64,000 nt of DNA from contig CM049322.1 in assembly GCA_026874595.1 (NCBI GenBank), forward strand, positions 32,692,340 through 32,756,339, in the 5' to 3' direction. Of this stretch, positions 9,776 to 62,494 are shown one piece after another. Positions within the stretch are counted from its first letter, which is position 1. The number at the start of each line of letters is the position of its first letter. The translations under genes were made by a program, and so were the position numbers. The DNA comes from Sipunculus nudus (Eukaryota; Annelida; Sipuncula; Golfingiida; Sipunculidae). Below the pieces are notes generated by a model, which saw only the letters and a list, made by a program, of their open reading frames with translations, made no database searches and had not been told where the DNA came from.

Positions 9776-11001
9776 ACTAATATTTTGGCATTTGTTATAC
9801 AGAGTATTGAACATTTCTGAGCCGTTTCCTTGAAATTAATACTTTGATAACTTAATATGGATTATTTCCAGCTTACTTACAGTAATATTTGCTATATTTA
9901 TTTAATATTTTCAGCTTACAAGGAGCGTCTGACTATGCCCAAGGTCATTATCAGCGCCTGCGGTGACGAGTTTTTCCTGCCGGACGATTCTCATTATTTC
10001 TTTGACGACATGCAGGGCCCAACGTATATGATGTAAGAATCGAGTTATCTGTAACACAAAAGTATATACGGAAATACGTGTTTATACATGATACACAAAA
10101 GTGATGTAATGAACACAGTCCATGAGAAAGGTATAACAAACATTTAACAAGGGATACTATGCTCAAACCATACATGAAGAAATTTTCATCCAGTGATCAT
10201 AATAATAATGCGGACATTACCATTATAAAACATCTTCCGATGACAGGACATATAATTTACAATCAAGAATTAGAGTGTATATTCAGGAAATAGCCCAGCA
10301 TTATCAGTCAGTGATTTCTTCTAGCGTTTACATCTATTTTTTTCTATATGATACAGGTTGCTAGAAAATACTCATCACGGCGTGACCTTGTCTGAAGCCA
10401 GGGTGTACGACGCTATTGTTGGATTCTACAAATCTGTATTAACGGTGGGTTTAACTGTGCTCCTTCATATGTGGTCTGTTATTTATTTTTTAGATAAACA
10501 TTGACAAAGCTGTAATATTCCAGGAACGTAAATTAGTTCGCACATACTATATTTGGAAGTAAAACAACACGATATCAAAGAAAATAATGAGTTTTTGCGC
10601 TCGCAGACGTACGGAAGCGTATTGCTGCCACCTAGTAAAAGAAAAATAAATTATTTATCTCGTACGTACGACATAGTATCTCGTACGTACGACATAGTAT
10701 CTCGTACGTACGACATACTATCTCGTACGTACGACATAGTATCTCGTACGTACGACATACTATCTCGTACGTACGACTTGTTATCTCGTACGTACGACAT
10801 ATTATCTCGTACGTACGACATACTATCTCGTACGTACGACATAATATCTCGTACGTACGACATAATATCTCGTACGTACGACATACTATCTCGTACGTAC
10901 GACATAATAAATCTTACGTGTGTGTGTGTGTGTGTGTGTATGTTAGATAATGTATGTTCTCCACCTCCTTGCAAACAGTTTGAACACCGTTGAAACGAAC
11001 G

Positions 11002-11062
<61 letters not shown>

Positions 11063-12376
11063 CTTTATTTATTTATATACACTATATATTTAAATGCTAT
11101 TCGATTATATCATTTTTCTGTGTCTGGGTTTCTGAAATATTTTAAGGAAGCGAAATGTATCAAGTCGTTGCCTGCAGGTCATATACAGAACTTTCATTTT
11201 TAGATAGGTGATTAATTCTGTTGGTAGCGTATGATGTTAAAAAGGATGAGCCTGTCATAGTATTAATAAAAAAATATTTCCTTTGCCAAATTGAAAACAA
11301 GAGGACAGCTACCAAATAGCCTAATTTTTAGTGTTTGAGTATTGTGCAGTTTTCTAATATTCATTATTGATCTAAAAATTAGATTTATGATATAACGCAC
11401 GGTGTAGTGGATCGTTAAAAATATTTAATGTATATACAACCATTTATATAATATGTGGGTAGCGGAACAGTCCACAACCCATTTTATGCGGTACATATAA
11501 TTTAATTTTTTATTTTAATAAAATAAAAAAAATATTATAGACTTTAGCTCATAGACATTTGATTAATCTGTGAAAGAAGAATACAAAATATAATACATTT
11601 CTTTTTGTTAATATGTCAGGCTGAAGTGGTGGTAAAGCCTGCACCTCAGATCGGTTTGATTTGCGGATAAGTATAAAATCTTATATGTGGTACATGTACG
11701 TGTAACTTGTCCTACTACTGTAGACACCATGAAGTTAAACTTATGGGATCAAGCACTCCGTTTCATAATTAATATAGGAATCATTAACCTCTCCTTATTG
11801 GCATCTCTGTATTACAGACACCTCTATAAGTGACACTTATGGTTCATATTCATTTGCAATAATATGTGTATTGTCTCACGTTATTAACTCATTTTGGGTG
11901 AAAACGAAAGTTGTCCAGCAAATCCATGCCGACACACGAGCTTAGTAACTCCTGGTTTTATACGTTGTCATGGTTCTGTCTGTGAGTTAACACAGTCCTC
12001 GTGTGTCTGTTTACAATTACAAGACCGCTTGACTAGCGGCAACATCTTAGTTGAGCACACGCGAAAATTATAAAAAAGAGAACAAACATGAAAAAAAGAA
12101 ACACCGGGAGAAGCTAGAAAACCTTGATTTGTGAAGTTGGGTTGTACATCCAACAAGTGGCGTGATCGCTGTTTGTTTTTCATCATCCATCGCACCCGTG
12201 GCAAGCCTTTTTCTACTTGCGTAACGGATTTAGCAAACGGTTTTAGAACGAAATATTGAAAGATACCGTAATATTTAAGGAGACTACACTGTATTTCATA
12301 TAAACGTAATATACCTGGTATGTGAAAGGTAAATAGGTTCACTCTTCACGGATTTTAATCTCCACTACAATCCTCT

Positions 12377-12409
<33 letters not shown>

Positions 12410-12410
12410 A

Positions 12411-12492
<82 letters not shown>

Positions 12493-13075
12493 TGTATGTA
12501 TTTGTGTGTGTGTGTGAAAAGACTGAAAACCTCGGGAGATATTGCCAGCGCTGTGTTAGAATGGTCGAGCTGGTGGATACTATTAATGTCATTAGTAATA
12601 CGTATAATGTCTATCAGTTCTTGTTCTTGTTTGACAAGATAAAAATATCCCACATGTGCAAGGAACACAGCTATGTTGTTGTCACTTGCGAGGGACTCCT
12701 ATGCTTATATAGCAAATTGAATATGGAAATAGAATTTAGAAATGGAACCATGCACAAGTGCCAATGTTCATCTGTTTCAAATGTGATGAAACAACTGTCC
12801 TTGGTCTGATAGTAACATCAAACATGAATACCTCTAGAAATAAAAACACTTTTATTAAAACACACATATATGTATATAGCCTTATTTTTAGCAATAGTCT
12901 GATTTATATACAATATGTATTGGTAGTATGGCAATTAATCTGTTTAACCAATGATTGTTCGCTACCTTTATAATCGATTAAATTCGTTACATATTTGTGT
13001 TCTTGTATATTTCCAACGGGATTAGATTCTTTACATGTACACGCATAATCGTTTTTAATCGATTATGTATGTATG

Positions 13076-13142
<67 letters not shown>

Positions 13143-15088
13143 GGAAATCTTTCTAAAGATGTTGTCCGGAGCGAGTGATCAGTGTCTGCCGGAGATGGCT
13201 TATCGTGTCCGTTTTTGTCAGGTTCATTTACTCTTAGAATGTTCGTGTGAGTTGCAATCTGCTGTCCGTTGTTCGCAGAAGCGATCGAGGTGTCCGCCTT
13301 GTAGAGGTTCTGCTTATACACAACATATACGGAATTTCGAAGGGACTAAATTCTCTTGTCCGTTATAGCCAGTCGTCCGCCTAAGTGAGGTGTCCGATTG
13401 ACCAGTTTTCACTGTATATATGAAAGAGAGAGAGCCGATTGTAGTAGAGAGTTTAAAATCCACGAAAAGTGGCTTCTAACGGGAACTATTTTACATTTCA
13501 CATACATGGTATATTAAGTATACATGAAATACAGTGTAGTCTCCTTAAAGTATTACGGTATCTGTCAATATTTCGTTCTAAAACCGATTGCTAAATTTGT
13601 TACACAAGTTGAAAAGAGCTTGCCCCGGGCGCGATCAACGACGAAAAACAAACACAGCGCTCACGCCACCTGGTGGTGGTACAGCCCAACTTCACAAATC
13701 AAGGGTTTTCAAGTTTCTCGCGGTGTTTATACATTCATGTTTGTTCTCTTTTTCATAATTGACGCGACCAAGATCTTTCCTCTGGTCACGAGGTCTTGTA
13801 ATGGTAAAGAGACACACCTGGACTGTATTTACTCACACACAAAACCATGACAACGTATAAAACTGGTTAACAGGAGATATTAAACCCGAAATATTTTTCT
13901 GTCACAAATTGATCGCACGTCCATGCATCATTATTTATTTCAAAATGATTATTATTATAAAATGGGTTGTTTACTGTTCAGCTACCCACTAATCATATAT
14001 TAATGGCTGTATATGCATTCAATATTTTAAACGATCCACTACACTGTGCGTTATATTATAGTTCCTAGACAGATCAATTTAGAATATTAGAAACCTGCCC
14101 CACAAATATCCTTTCTCAAACACTTACAGTAAGGCTGTTTGGTAACTGTAACTCTTGTCCGAACCTTTCTTCTCCAAAAAATAGTTTCAATTTGGCAAAG
14201 GCAATATTTTTTCTTATCATCATTATGACAGGTTCCCTATTATAGCACCATACGCAACAGAATTTAATCACCTATCTAAAAATGAGAGTTCTGTGTATGA
14301 CTGGTAGCCAATGTAGATTATATGTCGTACGTACGAGATAGTATGTCGTACGTACGAGATAATATGTCGTACGTACGAGATAATATGTCGTACGTACGAG
14401 ATAGTATGTCGTACGTACAAGATAGTATGTCGTACGTACGAGATAATATGTCGTACGTACGAGATAATATGTCGTACGTACGAGATAGTATGGCGTACGT
14501 ACGAGATACTATGTCGTACGTACGAGATACTATGTCGTACGTACGAGATAAATAATTTATTTTTCTTTTACTAGGTGGCAGCAATACGCTTCCGTACAGA
14601 CGTACCCAGCATTTGTTTTTATCAGCTGCCTGGGGCGGGCAATGTCCAGCAACCGGGTTGTTTCCTTATAACACCTAAATATGTTTAACTGTACAAAATG
14701 TCTTGATGTATCTTGAATAATGAAAACGGAAATGTTTTGGTTCTTTGGCGCGTGGCCAGTAGCTTCACGGTACACAAGGAAGTAATCATACTGCCCTCTA
14801 TAGCCAACTCTAATCGGATAATAACTGGCCGCTTTTGTAAAATTAAAATATGAAATTTATTATATTATTATTTGCCGATTAGAACTTGTCTCTGCTGAAG
14901 AAAACAGGACCTTTGTTTTATCATATGTTAATTCTGACGGTATCGATATCCGTGCCCCTCTCTGTACCGTAACATAAGCTGCCTATCTTTTAGTCCGCTC
15001 AGCGCTCTCCGCTTCGCGTATAAATTTATCGTATTATATCTTATTCTGCCCTTTTTATATTTTCGTCTCCTTTTTCGATTCTTGTTGC

Positions 15089-26191: not shown

Positions 26192-29100
26192 CCGGTCAAA
26201 TTTTGATCGGATAACATGTACCAGTGCACTGGGGTTAAATAATACCAAGAAAATTAGAATTAGAATGAAAATTTGACTTTTGAAATAATCTAATTTTCAA
26301 TATTTATTGTCCATATCGATGTTTATATTTTCAAAACGCCCAGCTGTTGTTGAAAATGTCAAATGTGTAATTATTTTAGTATCGATATCGTATTAAATAA
26401 CAAATGACCTAAGAAATTTGTGTAGATCTGCAAATACGATTTTTCTTTAAGTCAAGCTCTGGGACCCCTACCGACTATAGTATATTCTAAATAAGATAGC
26501 ATTGTATATTCTGATCTTATTATCTTAGTTAAATATTTCATCTGTGTATCTTCTTATTCCTTTATATTCTTATTTCTCCTCAGGCTGTCATTAGAGCCAT
26601 GGATACCGTGAACGCTGTTGCTAAGGAAAAGGTGCCGGATTCTGACGTCAACAGGTTTATGGTGGCAGGCGGGTCAAAGGTCAGTCACATTCTTTTGTTT
26701 AAACAATGTAATATTGTAATACTGTAATAACTATAAATTTTTTTTTTATGTTTATTATATCTGTAATACTTCACATGGTTGTTTTAATCTGTGCACCGCA
26801 TAACCAATTAACCAAAAAGTGTATTTGTAGTTGTGTTACTGTACAATGTATCAGGTTTAAAATTATACATATTATGAAGGTTTAATATCAGTTTTAAAAG
26901 ACTTCTGGGTTGATTTCCATGAGGGATTTTGCGAGGGTTGTTACCTTAACATGATCTCTTGTCATCAAGAGTTTAACATTAATTGATAACTCGTCATCTA
27001 AACACAGTCTTAATATACTGATTATGGTTTTATATATTATATGAATAAACCAAAGGTATATCTGTGATGTACCATTGATAACTACATGAAAAACTTTTTC
27101 CACAGCGCGGCTGGACGGCGTGGACGACGGCTGCCACAGACAGACGAGTAATCGCCGTGGCTCCTATAGTTCTGGACATTCTGAATATGGTGCCGGTAGG
27201 CTACGTCAAAATTAAGGATATCTAATCCTCCTCAACTTGAGATTTGACAGAGACATACCGAATTTTTCGTCTGTAGATATAGAAATTGTACAGATAGGCA
27301 TGTAACTGAATTTTTAAGAAATGTTGTCATATTAATATTCCAATAATCATGTCCTTTTGCAGAAATTTGAGTTACTCTTTAAAAAAAATTGCCGTTCAGG
27401 AATGACTGCTGAATGGATGTTGTGATTTCGAGAGCCTGATGAATCTTTTAGGAGTGGTCAACCAGCTGACAAATTCATATAAAGTCATATTAGAGTATTT
27501 TTCCCCAGAAAACGTAAAGTTATTTCTTATGTGTTTTTTAATTTGCAATGTGAACTTGAAAGTGTATTCTTTTGGAGAAGGGAATAGGACATATTATTAG
27601 GTCAATACTTCCAAGCAGGTTTGCTAAGTTTGAACATATAGGTACGGTCTAGCAAATTATTTTTTTAAAAAGTGTCATAGAAGTTTTGGTTTTAACTTGT
27701 CCTAAGTAAAGCAACTCTCGCAACATAGAAGGGTTTTTTACTGGATTTTCCTTCATAATTTACCATTATTAAACATGTTTTCTCTTGTAACACCTTGTTA
27801 TGTGTGTTGTCAATTCTAGAACCTTCAGCACCACTTCAGGGCCTACGGGGGCTGGTCGTTTGCGTTTGAACCTTATTACAATGAGAACATCACACAGTAT
27901 CTGACAGACCCCAGGACACAGCAGCTAGCGGACATCGTCGATCCTTACGGTAAAACATGTTTGGCTCATTGTCTTCAATGTCTGACTTCTACTAGCTAAA
28001 GTTTATTCTTGAATTTTTTTTTTTAAATAGGCCAGGTAACTCCGATCCTTCCGCACACAGACTGTCTGTTTTATTTATTAAAATGTGTTTATAACATATG
28101 GAGGCCCACAAAAATAACCCAAACACACTCAACAAAGACATCTGGTGGCAAGTTTATGCAAGAGTTTTGCAAATGGCATTTTGCGACTATTGGCCATTCA
28201 ACGTCCACATATATGCAATCTATATGTATACCGCCTTTTTAGCTCAGCTGACTATAAGTCATCTGAGCTATAGTCGTGGTCCATTGTCCGTCGTCCGTCC
28301 TTCCGTCCGTCCGTAGATGTGACACGTTTTAAAACCGTAAAATCTAGGAACCCAAAATTTGGCATAATGTTAGATGTCCCCAAGATCTCCTACCAAGCCG
28401 AAAACTGGGTCTTTGCGACTTCCTTTCTTTGAGAAATTAAGGAAAAACCTCAATTTTTTATTAAAAACCTATTTTCACACTTCAGGACCGCCTAATATCA
28501 AAACCACTCATCTGTTTTTAAAAAAGTTATGGGCTCAAACATAATGCATTTTGTAAAAAATCAGGAAAGATATTTGATCACTTAACACAAAACATGTTAG
28601 AACTGGGATTGTTATGGTTGATGATCTGTGCAAGGAAATATATGAATTATATAACAGAGTAAAAAACAATCCAAGGGTTCAAGAAGCTTGGACGTGGGAT
28701 GGGAAAGTCTTTCTCAAAGACTTGAATGGAGATGTGCGCACTGTGAGGTATGGGGAATCTCTAGAACAGTTACCAGTTTTAACTTGAATGATGTAATCAG
28801 ACAGATACTGCCAGGCCTAAAAAATGACCTGAAACCATTTATCATGTTCATGTTATTTGTACTGTTTTATGTTTTTGTGTTTATTACATTTTTGCTCCCA
28901 CCAAATACACATATATTCACTGAGCAAGAGAAGGATTATTTTAATTATACGTTACATAAAGAATTGAAAAATATATAAAAACAGTGTTGAGTGATACTAA
29001 GTTTCAAATCCTCTCTTTAAATGTAAGAGGAATAAGGAATTATATGAAAAGAAGACAGGTGTTTAATTGGATGGTTAAACATAATTCATATAATGGAATT

Positions 29101-32100
29101 TGTTTTCTACAAGAATGTCATAGTAAACAACATGATGAAATATCCTGGTCTAAGCAATGGCGAGGTTCAATGTATTTGTCCCACGGGACTAACAATTCAC
29201 GTGGTGTATGTATACTTGTTGGGAAAAATATTGATTTTAAAGAATATGATAAGTTGATAGACACTGAGGGTAGATACATAATTATTAAATGTGAAATCGA
29301 GGGTTTACAGTGTATTCTTGTAAACATTTATGCACCAAATACCGAAAGCCAACAGGTCAAATTTTATGATATTATTTTTGAAAACATTTTAAAATTGATA
29401 AATGATTCTGATGTCGAAGTTATATGGGGTGGAGATTTCAATGTACATTTAACTGAACAGGATGCTGATGGTGGAAGATTGGTTATTAAGCATAATTCTG
29501 TTAAGAAAATATTAAGTATAACAGTTGTTTTAAATTTGTGTGATATATGGCGTATTAAGCATGATGACTCTAAGGAATATACTTGGCGTTCAGTAACACC
29601 TCTTATTCAGAGACGACTAGATTATTTTTTTATATCGAATGAAATACAGTCATATGTTACAAGTTGTGAAATTATACCTGCTGTGAATACTGACCACTCA
29701 GCTGTGTTATTAAAAATAAATACAATTAAGGATGGAAGGAGAGGACCTTCCCATTGGTGTATGAACAATGATCTGCTTAATGATAATACCTATGTAAATA
29801 ACATAAAAGATAAAATTGCTGAATGGAAGCAGATCATGAATAATGAAACTGCTCAATGTAAATGGGAATACATAAAATTTAAAATCAGAGAGTATACTAT
29901 TACATACAGTAAAAATAAAGCGAAGAAAAACAGAGAATATGGTGAAAATCTTGAAAAGAGAGTGGCTCAGTTTGAAAAAATAATTAATTCTAAAAGCGAC
30001 ACTGAAACTCAGGTAATGTACTGCAATTTGAAACAAAAATCGCAGAACTATTATGATAATATTTCTAAAGGTGTGATTGTTAGATCTAGAGCCCAGTGGC
30101 TGGAACATGGTGAAAGAGGAACAAAATACTTCTTGAATCTTGAAAAACAAAATGGAAAGAGGTCTGTTATACGTGTACTGTGTCATGATGGACAGGATGT
30201 TACTAATCAGACTGATATTATGGAATGCCTTAAGACATTTTTCATTTCAAAATATCAAAAGAAAAGTAGCCATCATGAATATGAACTGAAGAGTTATTTT
30301 GAGAGTTTACCATTATGTGATAGTAAGTTAGATGAGTCAGAAGCAGAATTGTGTGGAAAACCTATAACATTGAATGAGGTTCATGCATGTTTGAAATCAA
30401 TGAAAAATAAATAAAACACCTGGAAATGATGGACTTACTAAAGAATTTTACTTAGCATTGTTTAGTGATCTTGGAGAGTGCCTCATGGACTGTTTAAATG
30501 AAAATTATACTTATGGTTCTCTCACAACAACACAAAAACAAGCACTTATAAAGTTAATACCAAAGCCTGGAAAAGATTTAAAGTATATCAAATCATGGAG
30601 ACCTATAAGTTTACTTAATGTTGATGTTAAAGTGATAAGTAAAATTCTTGTTCATAGAATAGGGAGGCATCTCCCTAAATTGATAAAGCCTGATCAATAT
30701 GCCTTTATACAAGGAAGATACATCTGGGATCCTATTAGAATTATATGGGATGTGCTTCATTATACTGATGTTGAAAATATACCTGGTATAATGTTTGCAG
30801 CGGATTTAGAAGCTGCATTTGACAGTTTAGACCATGAATTTATGTTTGCAGTTTTGAGATATTTTTGATTTGGTGATTCTTTTATTAAATGGGTTTTGAT
30901 ATTGCATAATAATATTCAAAGCGCTGTTTTGAATAATGGGTATACAACAGGGTATTTTACGTTAGAAAGGGGAACTCGCCAAGGAGATCCACTTGCAGCG
31001 TACTTATTTATCATGGAAATAGAAATATTAGCAATAAAGGTCAGGAATGATGAAAATATACGTGGAATAGTAATCGGAAATACTGCAGTTAAGATGTGTA
31101 TGTTTGCTGATGACACTACCATATTTGTTCAAAACGCAGAATCACTAGGCCAAGCCCTCTCTGTCATGCAGACATTTGAATATTATTCTTCATTAAAATT
31201 AAATGTAACAAAATCTGAAGCTACTTATATCGGATCTATGAAAAGTAACAGTGTCATGATTTTATACAATTTGAAGTGGATCGATTTAACAAAGGCAGCC
31301 ATACAAATTCTTGGGATATGGTTTTCTTATAATAAAGATATTATATTCAAGGAGAACTTTCAGAGAGTTGAGAATAATCTCAGAACTACATTAACAATTT
31401 GGAAAACCAGGAATCTTACAATTTATGGCAGGGCAGAAGTTGCCCGTTCACTTGGGCTTTCAAAGGTTTTGTATGTGACTAAGATGCTAATACCCCCGAC
31501 AAAGACTTTGCAAACCTTAAAGAGACTTCTATGTGATTTTATTTGGAATGCCAGAAAACCAAAAGTTAAATACACCACAATAATCGGAAAATATGAGCAG
31601 GGGGGGTTAAATGTGCCAGATATAGAGAGCAAAATAAGAACCCAGATGATAATGTGGGCCAAGAGATGTCTTGAGCCACAAGAATCTGTTGTGAAGCAGA
31701 TGCTTAATTTTAGACTTAGGAGTATCGGAGGTTTAAGATGTATCCGAGGCAACTTTGATATTAATGTGCTACCAAAAATATTGCCAAAATTTTATGTGAA
31801 AATGTTAAAAACCTGGGCTGACTATGTATCCGTGGAACCACAAACAGAAGATGAAATAATGTATCAATATGTATGGAATAACAAATATGTAAAAGTGAAT
31901 GGTATGTCATTATATAATAAATCTTTAGAAAATCTGGGAATAAATTATGTGAAAGATTTATTAAATACAGATGGATCATGGAAAAGTTGGAGTACTTTTC
32001 TACAAAACAATAACAGATGTACATTATTGAGCCATATGTACTGGTTACAACTGAAACATTCAATTCCACAAAGATGGAAAAATAATATATTGAATAAAGA

Positions 32101-35100
32101 GATAACAAATGAAAATGTGGAAAAATATATCATTGTGTCTGTGAATGGGATTGAAATACTTGATAATCTGAAGTCAAGGCATGTTTACCTTACCTACATA
32201 AGTAATAAGTGGAAAGTACCTACGACGCAGAAGAGCTGGAATGACATGAATGAAAAGAATAATATTGAAGTTGAATGGGAATATGTGTATAAGGGAATCT
32301 ATATGGTAACACTAGATACCTATCTGAGGGAATTCCAATACAAAATTCTAAACAAGTACATACCTCTTAATGAACAGTTATATAAATGGAAGATAAGTGA
32401 AACAGACAAATGTTCATATTGTTTCAACTACCAGGAAAGTATAATTCATTTATTTTTTGAATGTATAGTGAGTAAGAACTTATATTATTAAATTCAGGCA
32501 TGGCTACTCGAGTATGAATTGGACCTGCCTAATATATCACTTTCCATTGTATTGTATGGGATTCTACCTGTTAATGAAAATAATATCCTTTTTAATCAAA
32601 TTTTATTGTTGTACAAATGTATACTTTACAAACAAAGAGAGGAGAAGGAATCTTCATTATTTTCAGTGTTTAAATCAAAATTGAAGTATACAGAGAGAAT
32701 TGAAAGATATATAGCAAATGGCAGAGGATTACTGAGCAAGCATTATGATAAGTGGAGCAAACTAAGAAGTTTTTTCGATGAATTTAATTAAAGACAATGT
32801 GTTTGTTATGTCCTGTGATCAGTCCTGTATCATTGTATTGTGATAATGTTGCTAGTACATTGTATACCTATGTTGATGATGTTTGACAAAAAAAAATCGC
32901 CTGTGATGAAACAAAACTGTATCACATGAAAAAATTCTGAGGCGAAAGAGAGAAAAAAAAAAAAAAAAAAAAATGTTAAAACTAAGTTTTTTTTCCAGTA
33001 ATATAACTTTAATTAATCAAAATTAAATTGTATACCCAAAATTAGATCAAAATCTTTTAAATTTTTTTAAAATATTAGCAAAAATAAAAAATTGCTACCT
33101 TAAATTTTGCCCAACTTTGGCCATGGCACGTTTTTTTCCTGTAAGAACTGTGGATTTAATTTTCACAGCATGTGCACATAAGGATTAAATCTGTTAAAAT
33201 CTGAAATTTGAAAATAAAAGCTGCAAAATTAGGCTGGTTATTAATTTTTTTTTTTGGGGGGGGGGGCTCTTGTTGTATTCCCTTACATTGTCAAGCAGTC
33301 CACTTTGGTCACTGTAGGTCATTCAGTGCAGCTCTCTATGCTCCCCAGGCTGTTGGCATAATGTTATGCAATCCCATCACTAGGGCAAGCCCTCTCTCCA
33401 CTGAGTTGAGTTTGATCAGGCTGTCTGCAGTTAATACCATACCACAAGGAGCCTCCCCCCCCCCCCCCACCCCACCCCATTCTGTTGACAGTATTGTACT
33501 ATGAACTAGATGAATCTTAAAATTAACATTTTTTTCAGCAACGAGCAGTAACAACGGAGACCCCTCCCCCCACCCACCCCTTCAATACACAGGACTAATA
33601 AACAAGATGAATCTTATAATTTTAATGTTAAATAAATTCTTTTTGATGAGACTTGGACAATTTTGATTTTTTAAAGAAAAAAAATCATGAATTTAATCCT
33701 AATATTCAAATGTGATAAAATATAAGGATCCAATGTTAGTTCTAACTGACAAGATTAAAGAAGATATAAATGCTTTGTAGCATTTCATTCATATCTCTTA
33801 AAGTCGGCGGGGCCTAGGTGTGAATAACACTGTTAACTTAGTATTAAAATTAGGAAAATTGGTCAAACTTTTCTGGGATTAATTTTTACCTCATATGGCC
33901 ATATATTTAACTTTTGAAAACTTAAATACCTTCACACATTATTTGTTTATGAAATGTTACTTTTATATAACACTTACCTTAGGCCTATTTGTTCCCTTGT
34001 GCGTCACTAAATGGTTTAGGTCATGTCCATTATTCTATAATTTACAGAGTTTCATTTTAGCAGGGCCATTTTCTCATAGCTTTTCTTATGATAATATACA
34101 TGAAAAACCAAAAGAAATGAAAATATTTTGCAGTTATTAATATTTTCCAAAATTAAGCTGAGCGATGTGACCCATGGGTCCCTTGTTTCCCGTTTGTCAA
34201 CATTGCTTTGTTTACAAACAGTCTGTAGATAAACAAGCTTACAAATACGTCACAGTGGCGTTTTATGAACTTTTCTTAACAGTCATTGCCTGGGGAGTCT
34301 TGATATATACACACAGTTTGCCAGCAATCACATTTATTCAGTAGAAGTGGCAGGTTAATAGGTGGCTTTAAGGGGTAGTTTCGTAAATTGCCGCTTTAAC
34401 CTTTTACCTGGATTTATTTTCTCAAGTACCTCGCTCCTCACGCATCGGTTATTTGAATACACTGCAGTCGTCCCAGATCTCCTTTGTTATAACCGCTGCT
34501 TTGTATTGCAAGATTCTGTTGGTTTCACCAAAGAACTTTAATCAGACCAATGAGAGCGTGGTATCACATTGTGCATCCAGCTCCTAATTTTAAATATGCG
34601 ACACTCACCCTAATTGGTCTGATTACACCGGTTCTGGCACATTCTATTTTTTTATAAAACAAATAAAACTAACCTGAACTTTAGAAACCGATACAAAATG
34701 TGTGTCCTGCTACGTCAAGGTATCAACTAACCACCAAGGGTGATTAACACGTTAGATGTATCTGATTGTACATTTAATCATCACCCCACGTGCACTTTGG
34801 TGGGAGTGTACGCTTGGTGCAATTTCTAGGGCGGATCCAGGATTTAGGAAGGGGGTTCCATTCCAGGAGGACTAATGATAAAAAAAAACATAAAAAGGTC
34901 CCCAGGTCTGGAAAAAGGGAGTTTTATAGGCTATCGCGAAAATGAAACCCTCAAGAAATCGTAAAATGTCAGCCTCACGAATATAAAGCCAAATACATTA
35001 TATGCACACGCGCGTTTACTCTAGAATTTAGCAATAATATTTGCTATTTTTAACTATTTTCAGCTTACAAAGAGCGTCTGACTATGCCCAAGGTCATTAT

Positions 35101-42015: not shown

Positions 42016-42529
42016 TATTTTTTATTTATTTTGAACAATATTTTATAATGTGATTGATCGGTTGGTATGCGCACGTGTGTATTTGCACAAATATCGACAT
42101 AACTAGACCTGTCACAGGTCGAGAAATAAATTTGTTTTGAAAATTAAACAATATCAGTTAAACCCGGCCATCCTTTACATTTATTTTTTGTGATATTTCA
42201 TGCTTATTTCATGTGTGGAATACAATTAGTTCGCTTTACTTCTCGGTGGTGTGGGGGGGGGGCTATCTTTAAACGTATATAATCATTTACATTAATATGT
42301 GTACTCTCTGATTCTATCTCACACCCTCACACTATTATTTAAGTCTGGCTTAATGCAAAGATTTCAAATTAAAACCATCTCTGGTCGTGGACTTACTCTA
42401 TCAAATTCATCTGCTTTATATGTGCCAATATGGTTATGTGTGTGAGTAACAAGACTGTATGACCAGATGCCGAAAATCTAACTAAAACGCGATATCGCAC
42501 AAACAAAGGGGAAAAGAAATGAAAGTAGA

Positions 42530-42785
42530 AGAACAGAAGCTTGAAAAGTCATGATCTGTGAAGTTGCACTGTACGGCTACCTGGCGTTGTGCGGGCTACG
42601 TGTTTATGTTTAGCGCTAATGATCGCGCATGATGCAAGCTTATTGACACTCCAATACAGGGGTAAGCAAACGGTTTCAGAACGAAATATTGGCAGATACA
42701 AAAATATGTAAGAAGAAAACACTATGTTTCATGAGTATTCAATATACCTGGTATGCATGTGAATAGGTCCCTTTAATGTGTAAAG
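42530..42785 (+). repeat. Isolated fragment of the long-inverted-repeat element's arm
   Basis: GAACGAAATATTG, AATATACCTGGTATG, GATCTGTGAAGTTG and GGTAAGCAAACGGTTTCA match 12115-12350 in order and orientation, with many substitutions. This shows that the arm sequence belongs to a dispersed family. Confidence 0.65.

Positions 42786-47552: not shown

Positions 47553-62494
<14,942 letters not shown>

Follow-up and report, generated by a model that had tools for sequence, protein, structure and literature searches.

The question raised by this locus is what kind of mobile element carries, in both of its arms and in opposite orientations, an array of short palindrome-bearing units, and what part such arrays might play in the life of the element. 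The window, by which is meant the whole 64-kb stretch of Sipunculus nudus DNA that was analysed, contains a foldback-type element at 10610-14596, 3987 bp in length. A first-pass annotation had described a four-kilobase foldback element with opposed 21-bp arrays that carry a 12-bp palindrome, with about 12 units in one arm versus 11 in the other, and that description proved accurate, the termini being exact and the palindrome TCGTACGTACGA occurring 12 times on the left and 11 times on the right. Beyond the earlier description, a 6-bp flanking duplication, CAGACG, was recognised and the family, which had not then been recognised, can now be named as IS3EU. The parts of the element are as follows.

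10604..10609, no strand: left target-site duplication CAGACG, 6 bp, by direct reading (perfect duplications of 6 bp flank 28/31 two-ended copies)
10610..10629, forward strand: left terminus TACGGAAGCGTATTGCTGCC, by pattern search (exact matches in the genome: 194 on each strand, against 0 for the control)
10630..10655, no strand: A/T-rich linker from terminus to array, by direct reading
10656..10906, forward strand: left array, 12 units of 21 bp, each a 20-bp near-palindrome TATCTCGTACGTACGACATA plus one free base, by TRF and palindrome search
10907..12386, forward strand: left inner arm, with two stretches homologous to the right arm and microsatellites inside, by self-alignment and TRF
12387..13421, no strand: central spacer of about 1 kb, microsatellite-rich, by self-alignment and TRF
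13422..14314, reverse strand: right inner arm, by self-alignment
14315..14551, reverse strand: right array, 11 units of 21 bp in the opposite orientation, by TRF and palindrome search
14577..14596, reverse strand: right terminus, a perfect inverted copy of TACGGAAGCGTATTGCTGCC, by pattern search
14597..14602, no strand: right target-site duplication CAGACG, 6 bp, by direct reading

The 20-bp terminus is exact at both ends, 10610-10629 on the forward strand and 14577-14596 on the reverse, and a third match is absent from the window at up to 3 mismatches, as are any matches in 100 shuffles. The palindrome recurs in a 21-bp step at 10660-10902 and again at 14325-14546, where 2 of the 11 occurrences have a single mismatch, against a mean of 0.04 matches in the shuffle control. 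The outer 283 bp of the two arms are 95% complementary, and the homology of the inner arms is more diverged, with 74% between 11178-11487 and 13957-14301 and 81% between 11955-12386 and 13422-13863. In most of the arms listed the first 20-bp near-palindrome, or box, starts 46 bases inside the terminus.

The element is by no means alone, in keeping with what the first-pass annotation had supposed. The exact terminus was found at 194 forward and 194 reverse places in the 1.43-Gb genome, and the reversed terminus pattern, used as a control, at 0 places in that genome. Target duplications were scored in 31 two-ended copies, made up of 28 facing pairs among the matches listed (100 places, on contigs C1-C3), two more pairs and the copy in the window, with one-ended or complex copies and parts of giant copies (L039-L048) and short pieces (L001-L008) falling outside the count. 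A perfect 6-bp duplication was present immediately outside TACGG..CCGTA in 28 of the 31, of which 27 were read directly (L016 via the inner of two left termini) and one, L017, by allowing for a 16-bp terminal duplication, and it was not found in L009, L011 and L025. When the left flank of each copy was compared with the right flank of another, none of the 930 mismatched pairs agreed. In eight copies whose alignment to the window element exceeds 3,800 bases the identity is 89-95%, and divergence of the body from that of the window element was 4-17% among the 24 alignments listed. Since many copies elsewhere have different flanks and different duplications, it is very unlikely that the inverted arms are an artefact of assembly.

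The window copy does not appear among the 108 matches listed in a search of the genome for transposases, some of which are exons of one gene, and it is non-autonomous. A partner of the kind that the first-pass annotation had proposed to look for was found in elements of about 22 kb with window-type termini and arrays and a transposase frame. One of these lies on C17 at 22613458-22635653, its ends 22,196 bp apart and AGTTCT on both sides, and a second on C10 runs from 16851256 to about 16873.4k with the duplication ATCAGC, as read from its ends. The ends of the two giants are about 99% identical (466/470 and 355/359 aligned bases), a gap of two array units aside, and their 298-codon transposase frame, which is 100% identical between them, matches the Pfam integrase core domain rva_4 (E 3.3e-25), with D, D and E conserved in a three-member alignment. 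An N-terminal helix-turn-helix match scored 20.7 bits, below the Pfam cut-off of 31.5. A search of solved structures with the transposase sequence gave five matches, of which the best had an E of 0.018, the top ones were interferon gamma and none was an integrase. A pattern taken from the transposase alignment had 24 matches in viral_contigs and 60 in genome_contigs, among which there were no confirmed relatives, and the terminus pattern had 0 matches in viral_contigs. In the middle of the C17 giant there is also a frame of 646 codons that contains a HECT domain (3.6e-8). An 8.4-kb copy, L016, was considered as the autonomous partner and rejected, its long frames being those of a LINE endonuclease/reverse transcriptase on the minus strand; this nested LINE is about 71% identical to a LINE in the window.

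A number of superfamilies might have supplied an element of this shape. Members of the P superfamily, which includes Galileo, have a THAP transposase and make duplications of 7-8 bp, whereas those seen here are of 6 bp and there was no THAP match in the seven partner frames scanned. Foldback and Mutator-like elements (FB, Phantom, Rehavkus) have target duplications of 8-10 bp and a MULE transposase, in contrast to the 6-bp duplications and the rva_4 transposase of the partner. Helitrons and Helentrons, which include the satellite-like arrays of oysters, are not known to make a target duplication, whereas perfect inverted termini and 6-bp duplications are present here. According to the sections of PMC10045372 that were available, TA..TA ends are invariable in complete IS3EU families and 6-bp duplications are usual, and the IS3EU families of rust fungi have TAYGG..CCRTA ends, according to those of PMC12730594. 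The TACGG..CCGTA ends of the window element and its copies, the integrase-like DDE transposase of the 22-kb partner and the 6-bp duplications are three features on which the family fits the IS3EU/GingerRoot superfamily.

An important consideration in attempting to establish what the arrays do is how far their sequence is free to vary. Each unit consists of the 20-bp box and one free base, giving a step of 21 bp, or two helical turns, and each contains three CpG. When 661 units in 80 arms were read in register (the L039 array, behind a doubled terminus, being counted twice), 20 of the 21 positions were conserved at 95-99%. Acceptance of a unit required no more than 4 mismatches in the 12-bp palindrome, a rule that biases this part towards conservation; the eight positions of the box outside it lay beyond that selection and were also 95-98% conserved. 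The composition of position 21 in the same 661 units was C 243, T 240, G 98 and A 80. The idea that this base is hypermutable was rejected, since some close copies share the entire series of spacer bases (the right arms of L020 and L036 are the same); it is thus regarded as free, with much of its variation inherited. In a count of 714 units read by another rule, the core hexamer had 72/4284 substitutions (1.7%) and the rest of the box 222/9996 (2.2%), Fisher p 0.04, and little weight is given to the slightly higher conservation of the core since the units are not independent. The arrays look constrained. The number of units per arm ranges from 0 to 17 and differs by two between the ends of the near-identical giants, so that the earlier remark that the arrays turn over while staying similar holds.

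Period-21 arrays are common at the IS3EU transposases of this genome. Upstream stretches were chosen by hand to represent many lineages, and TRF (score 40) found a period-21 array in 24 of 27, several of which are copies of one family and two of which (L058 and L059) are the two ends of one element, as compared with 1 of the 57 tiles of the window used as controls. At least 4 units were present in 16 of the 24 arrays, two of these strong arrays (L057 and L066) being A-rich, and 1.9-2.9 units in the other 8, the lone control array having 2.4. TRF gave no period-21 array in L060, where the period was 43 bp, or in L075 and L076, where it reported nothing. Among 11 regions in which a terminus could be placed, three of them from the window element's own family, a lag of 21 was the best in 8 and came second, after 42 or 43, in the other 3; it was the best lag in 6 of 130 control tiles, and one control tile had a lag-21 match of 0.60, exceeding L060 (0.54), L075 (0.47) and L080 (0.56). 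Where boxes are missing or damaged the next one lies mostly 41-42, 62-64 or 85 bp on, near multiples of 21, with odd spacings of 45 in L075 and of 43 for one recurring core in L060. A group comprising L056, L057, L066, L067 and L071 has about two palindromic boxes followed by an A-rich array of 21-23 bp. The period and the frame of the box persist across lineages with transposases about 31-52% identical to that of the own family.

These data bear on the suggestion that slippage has spread the arrays as neutral minisatellites, with a period and boxes inherited from one ancestor and without present function. The ready change in unit number would suit such an origin, as would a box frame partly common to the lineages and the few spacings that depart from 21, but it would leave a repeat in which one position in 21 is free and the other 20 are held at 95-99%, gaps between boxes that fall mostly near multiples of 21, and a period and frame that have outlasted so much divergence of the transposases. 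Neutral descent is accordingly regarded as highly improbable.

A second family in the same genome was identified by its terminus TACGGAGCCCCGTTAGGGACATGAG, with 47 + 54 matches at up to 2 mismatches and 0 for a control pattern. A pair of these ends on C14 is 33.1 kb apart with a 309-codon transposase frame at one end, and copies of 4.5-4.9 kb also occur. Boxes were found at both ends in all four pairs examined, with steps mostly of 21 bp but also of 18 (in one arm), 20, 41 and 42. Three of the four pairs have 6-bp duplications, GGCATC, GTAAAC and CATATC, the last of which sits outside a 9-bp terminal duplication, and in the C2 pair no such duplication was found. The position of the arrays in these copies matters to the proposal that they serve the transposase gene as promoter or operator and are of consequence for its expression and not for movement. 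The transposase frame of the giant does begin just within one array, and a period-21 array lies upstream of 24/27 transposase matches in relatives; however, the same arrays are found at the other end of the giant and at both ends of copies that lack a transposase, and in the three second-family copies of 4.5-4.9 kb that were examined they stand at both ends. A purely regulatory role would, on this distribution, be a considerable surprise.

The lineages differ most plainly in the centre of the box. Within a rough frame of TATCTCG-N6-CGAGATA the core, as read by eye, is TACGTA in the own family, CCCGGG in L054, TGCGCA in L055, L058, L069, L072, L074 and L080, TGGCCA/TTCCCA in L060, TTCCCT in L061 and L064, and AGATCT in L056, in which the first box, TATCTCGAGATCTCGAGATA, is perfectly palindromic; of the cores, TTCCCA and TTCCCT lack palindromic symmetry. 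The transposases L082 and L085 are both associated with TGCGCA at 50% identity and L081 and L083 with differing cores at 52%, and on these sequences the cores do not simply follow the relatedness of the transposases. The residue after the conserved R in the helix, read by eye in 11 rows, is T in the own family (TACGTA), N in L081 (CCCGGG), V in the degenerate L091 and H in 8 of the 11, where the cores are TGCGCA, AGATCT, TGGCCA/TTCCCA, TTCCCT or mixed. Since H pairs with several cores, no helix-core code is claimed from these rows.

The main rival to the view that the boxes are read by the transposase is that a protein of the host, such as a zinc-finger or CpG-reading factor, could bind them and either recruit or silence the element, whilst the transposase reads the outer terminus only. 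The three CpG of each unit would lend themselves to this, the outer terminus forms a conserved block of its own, and TGCGCA is common to several lineages, as a shared host factor would allow. A single factor would, however, be expected to favour one site, and the cores differ among IS3EU lineages of the same genome; the arrays are moreover kept at both ends of non-autonomous copies, though a host factor could need that too. A host protein as the principal reader of the arrays is considered unlikely.

The reading that is preferred here, with a probability of roughly 0.7, is that the window element belongs to the IS3EU DNA transposons as a non-autonomous copy of foldback type, and that its arrays are putative transposase binding sites, helically phased and multimerised. 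The palindrome often differs between related families whereas the spacing is retained, a pattern that suggests that the arrays are docking sites for the transposase, and the comparison strengthens the suggestion of the first-pass annotation that they may bind protein. Under this reading the transposase of the 22-kb partner would move the window element in trans. Each box would represent a pair of inverted half-sites (TATCTCG and CGAGATA) around the six-base core, and the 21-bp repeat, being two helical turns, would bring the boxes to the same face of the helix, so that a row of transposase dimers could load on them through the weakly matched N-terminal helix-turn-helix. Such rows may help the transposase to recognise the right ends and to pair them. 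As the related families have retained the spacing and much of the frame but other cores occur in several of them, it is possible that a transposase recognises its own elements by the core and ignores those of a sister family.

A more general proposal, offered tentatively and with rather less than even expectation, is that IS3EU ends carry a code, written in phased 20-bp boxes whose frame stays constant and whose hexamer, in most cases a palindrome, can be exchanged, and read by the N-terminal helix-turn-helix, in which hexamer and helix would co-evolve and thereby end the cross-mobilisation of non-autonomous copies belonging to sisters. One genome here provides a comparison set of several IS3EU lineages with the same spacing, a similar frame, several cores and arrays beside a transposase frame. 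Such a set bears on the means by which a eukaryotic transposase distinguishes its own ends from a sister family's, and on the question of why a dozen sites are kept at each end of some elements.

The superfamily, the foldback shape and the repetition of transposase sites are each already known. The TU elements of sea urchins have inverted arms with an outer part that is a tandem array of short units, but these are of about 15 bp and the duplications of 8 bp. Galileo and Foldback also differ from the present element in the length of the target duplication, and TnsB, the transposase component of Tn7-like elements, belongs to the integrase-like group. In the literature searched, mostly by title and the start of the abstract, no account was found of IS3EU elements with palindromic arrays that are phased and differ in core; the original GingerRoot paper and Repbase lie outside that scope, and a Repbase entry may mention such repeats. 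The likeness to IS3EU/GingerRoot lies in the TA..TA ends, 6-bp duplications and integrase-like DDE transposase, as given in the available sections of PMC10045372 and PMC12730594, which do not mention subterminal 21-bp palindromic arrays or a foldback derivative; in term searches 'tandem repeat' was absent from the former paper and 'subterminal' from the latter. Tandem repeats have been tied to IS3EU in an animal by the oyster satellites CgiSat35 (690 bp) and CgiSat47 (129 bp), which are annotated as DNA/IS3EU but have unit lengths other than 21 bp, and a 21-bp satellite, CgiSat43, stands unannotated in the same table (PMC8268682, in the part seen).

Galileo and Drosophila Foldback share with the window element long inverted arms with tandem repeats, and Galileo, a member of the P superfamily with several THAP-domain binding sites within its arms, is an earlier instance of foldback arms that contain transposase sites (PMC3688188). 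That 2013 paper described the idea that the arm repeats of Foldback and Phantom are transposase binding sites as then untested; the transposases concerned are of another superfamily, and neither a strict 21-bp phase nor a family-specific core is described in the sections of it that were available. Tn7-like elements resemble the present family in having arrays of transposase (TnsB) sites near both ends, with inverted repeats of 22 bp in Tn7, and differ in being bacterial and, according to the part of PMC8649781 covered, in the number of those sites, Tn7 having three at one end and four at the other as compared with up to 17 units per arm here.

The terminus of the IS3EU transposons is itself partly duplicated in some copies, by 16 bp at the right end of L017 and 16 bp at the left end of L025, both two-ended copies of the foldback element's family, and by 9 bp at the left end of L092, a copy in the second IS3EU family. 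The 6-bp target duplication lies external to the extra terminus piece in L017 and L092, an arrangement that would fit insertion of an incorrectly processed end.

Inside the 22-kb IS3EU element lies a frame of 646 codons (L050:1912-3849, L050 being a fetched locus) that encodes a HECT ubiquitin-ligase domain and may be a companion gene. Another IS3EU element, represented by its two ends L058 and L059 (C5:30156236-30167492), has inward-facing transposase-like frames near both ends, and comparison of the 6 bases outside each end gave no match.

Elsewhere in the window, about 270 bp at 42505-42775 are similar (69-79%) to the element's inner arms, and 39 alignments from fetched loci land within this stretch; a search of the window for the 20-bp terminus found none nearby. 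Other frames in the window are:

28960-32491, LINE-like frames that on reading resemble an endonuclease and a reverse transcriptase
58491-58856, frame that by eye resembles an RRM domain as encoded by hnRNP A/B-type genes

The LINE-like frames are about 71% identical to the LINE nested in family copy L016.

The satellite table of an oyster study (PMC8268682) includes CgiSat43, an unannotated satellite with a 21-bp unit, together with two IS3EU-annotated satellites. That CgiSat43 is related to the element's 21-bp arrays is only a guess.
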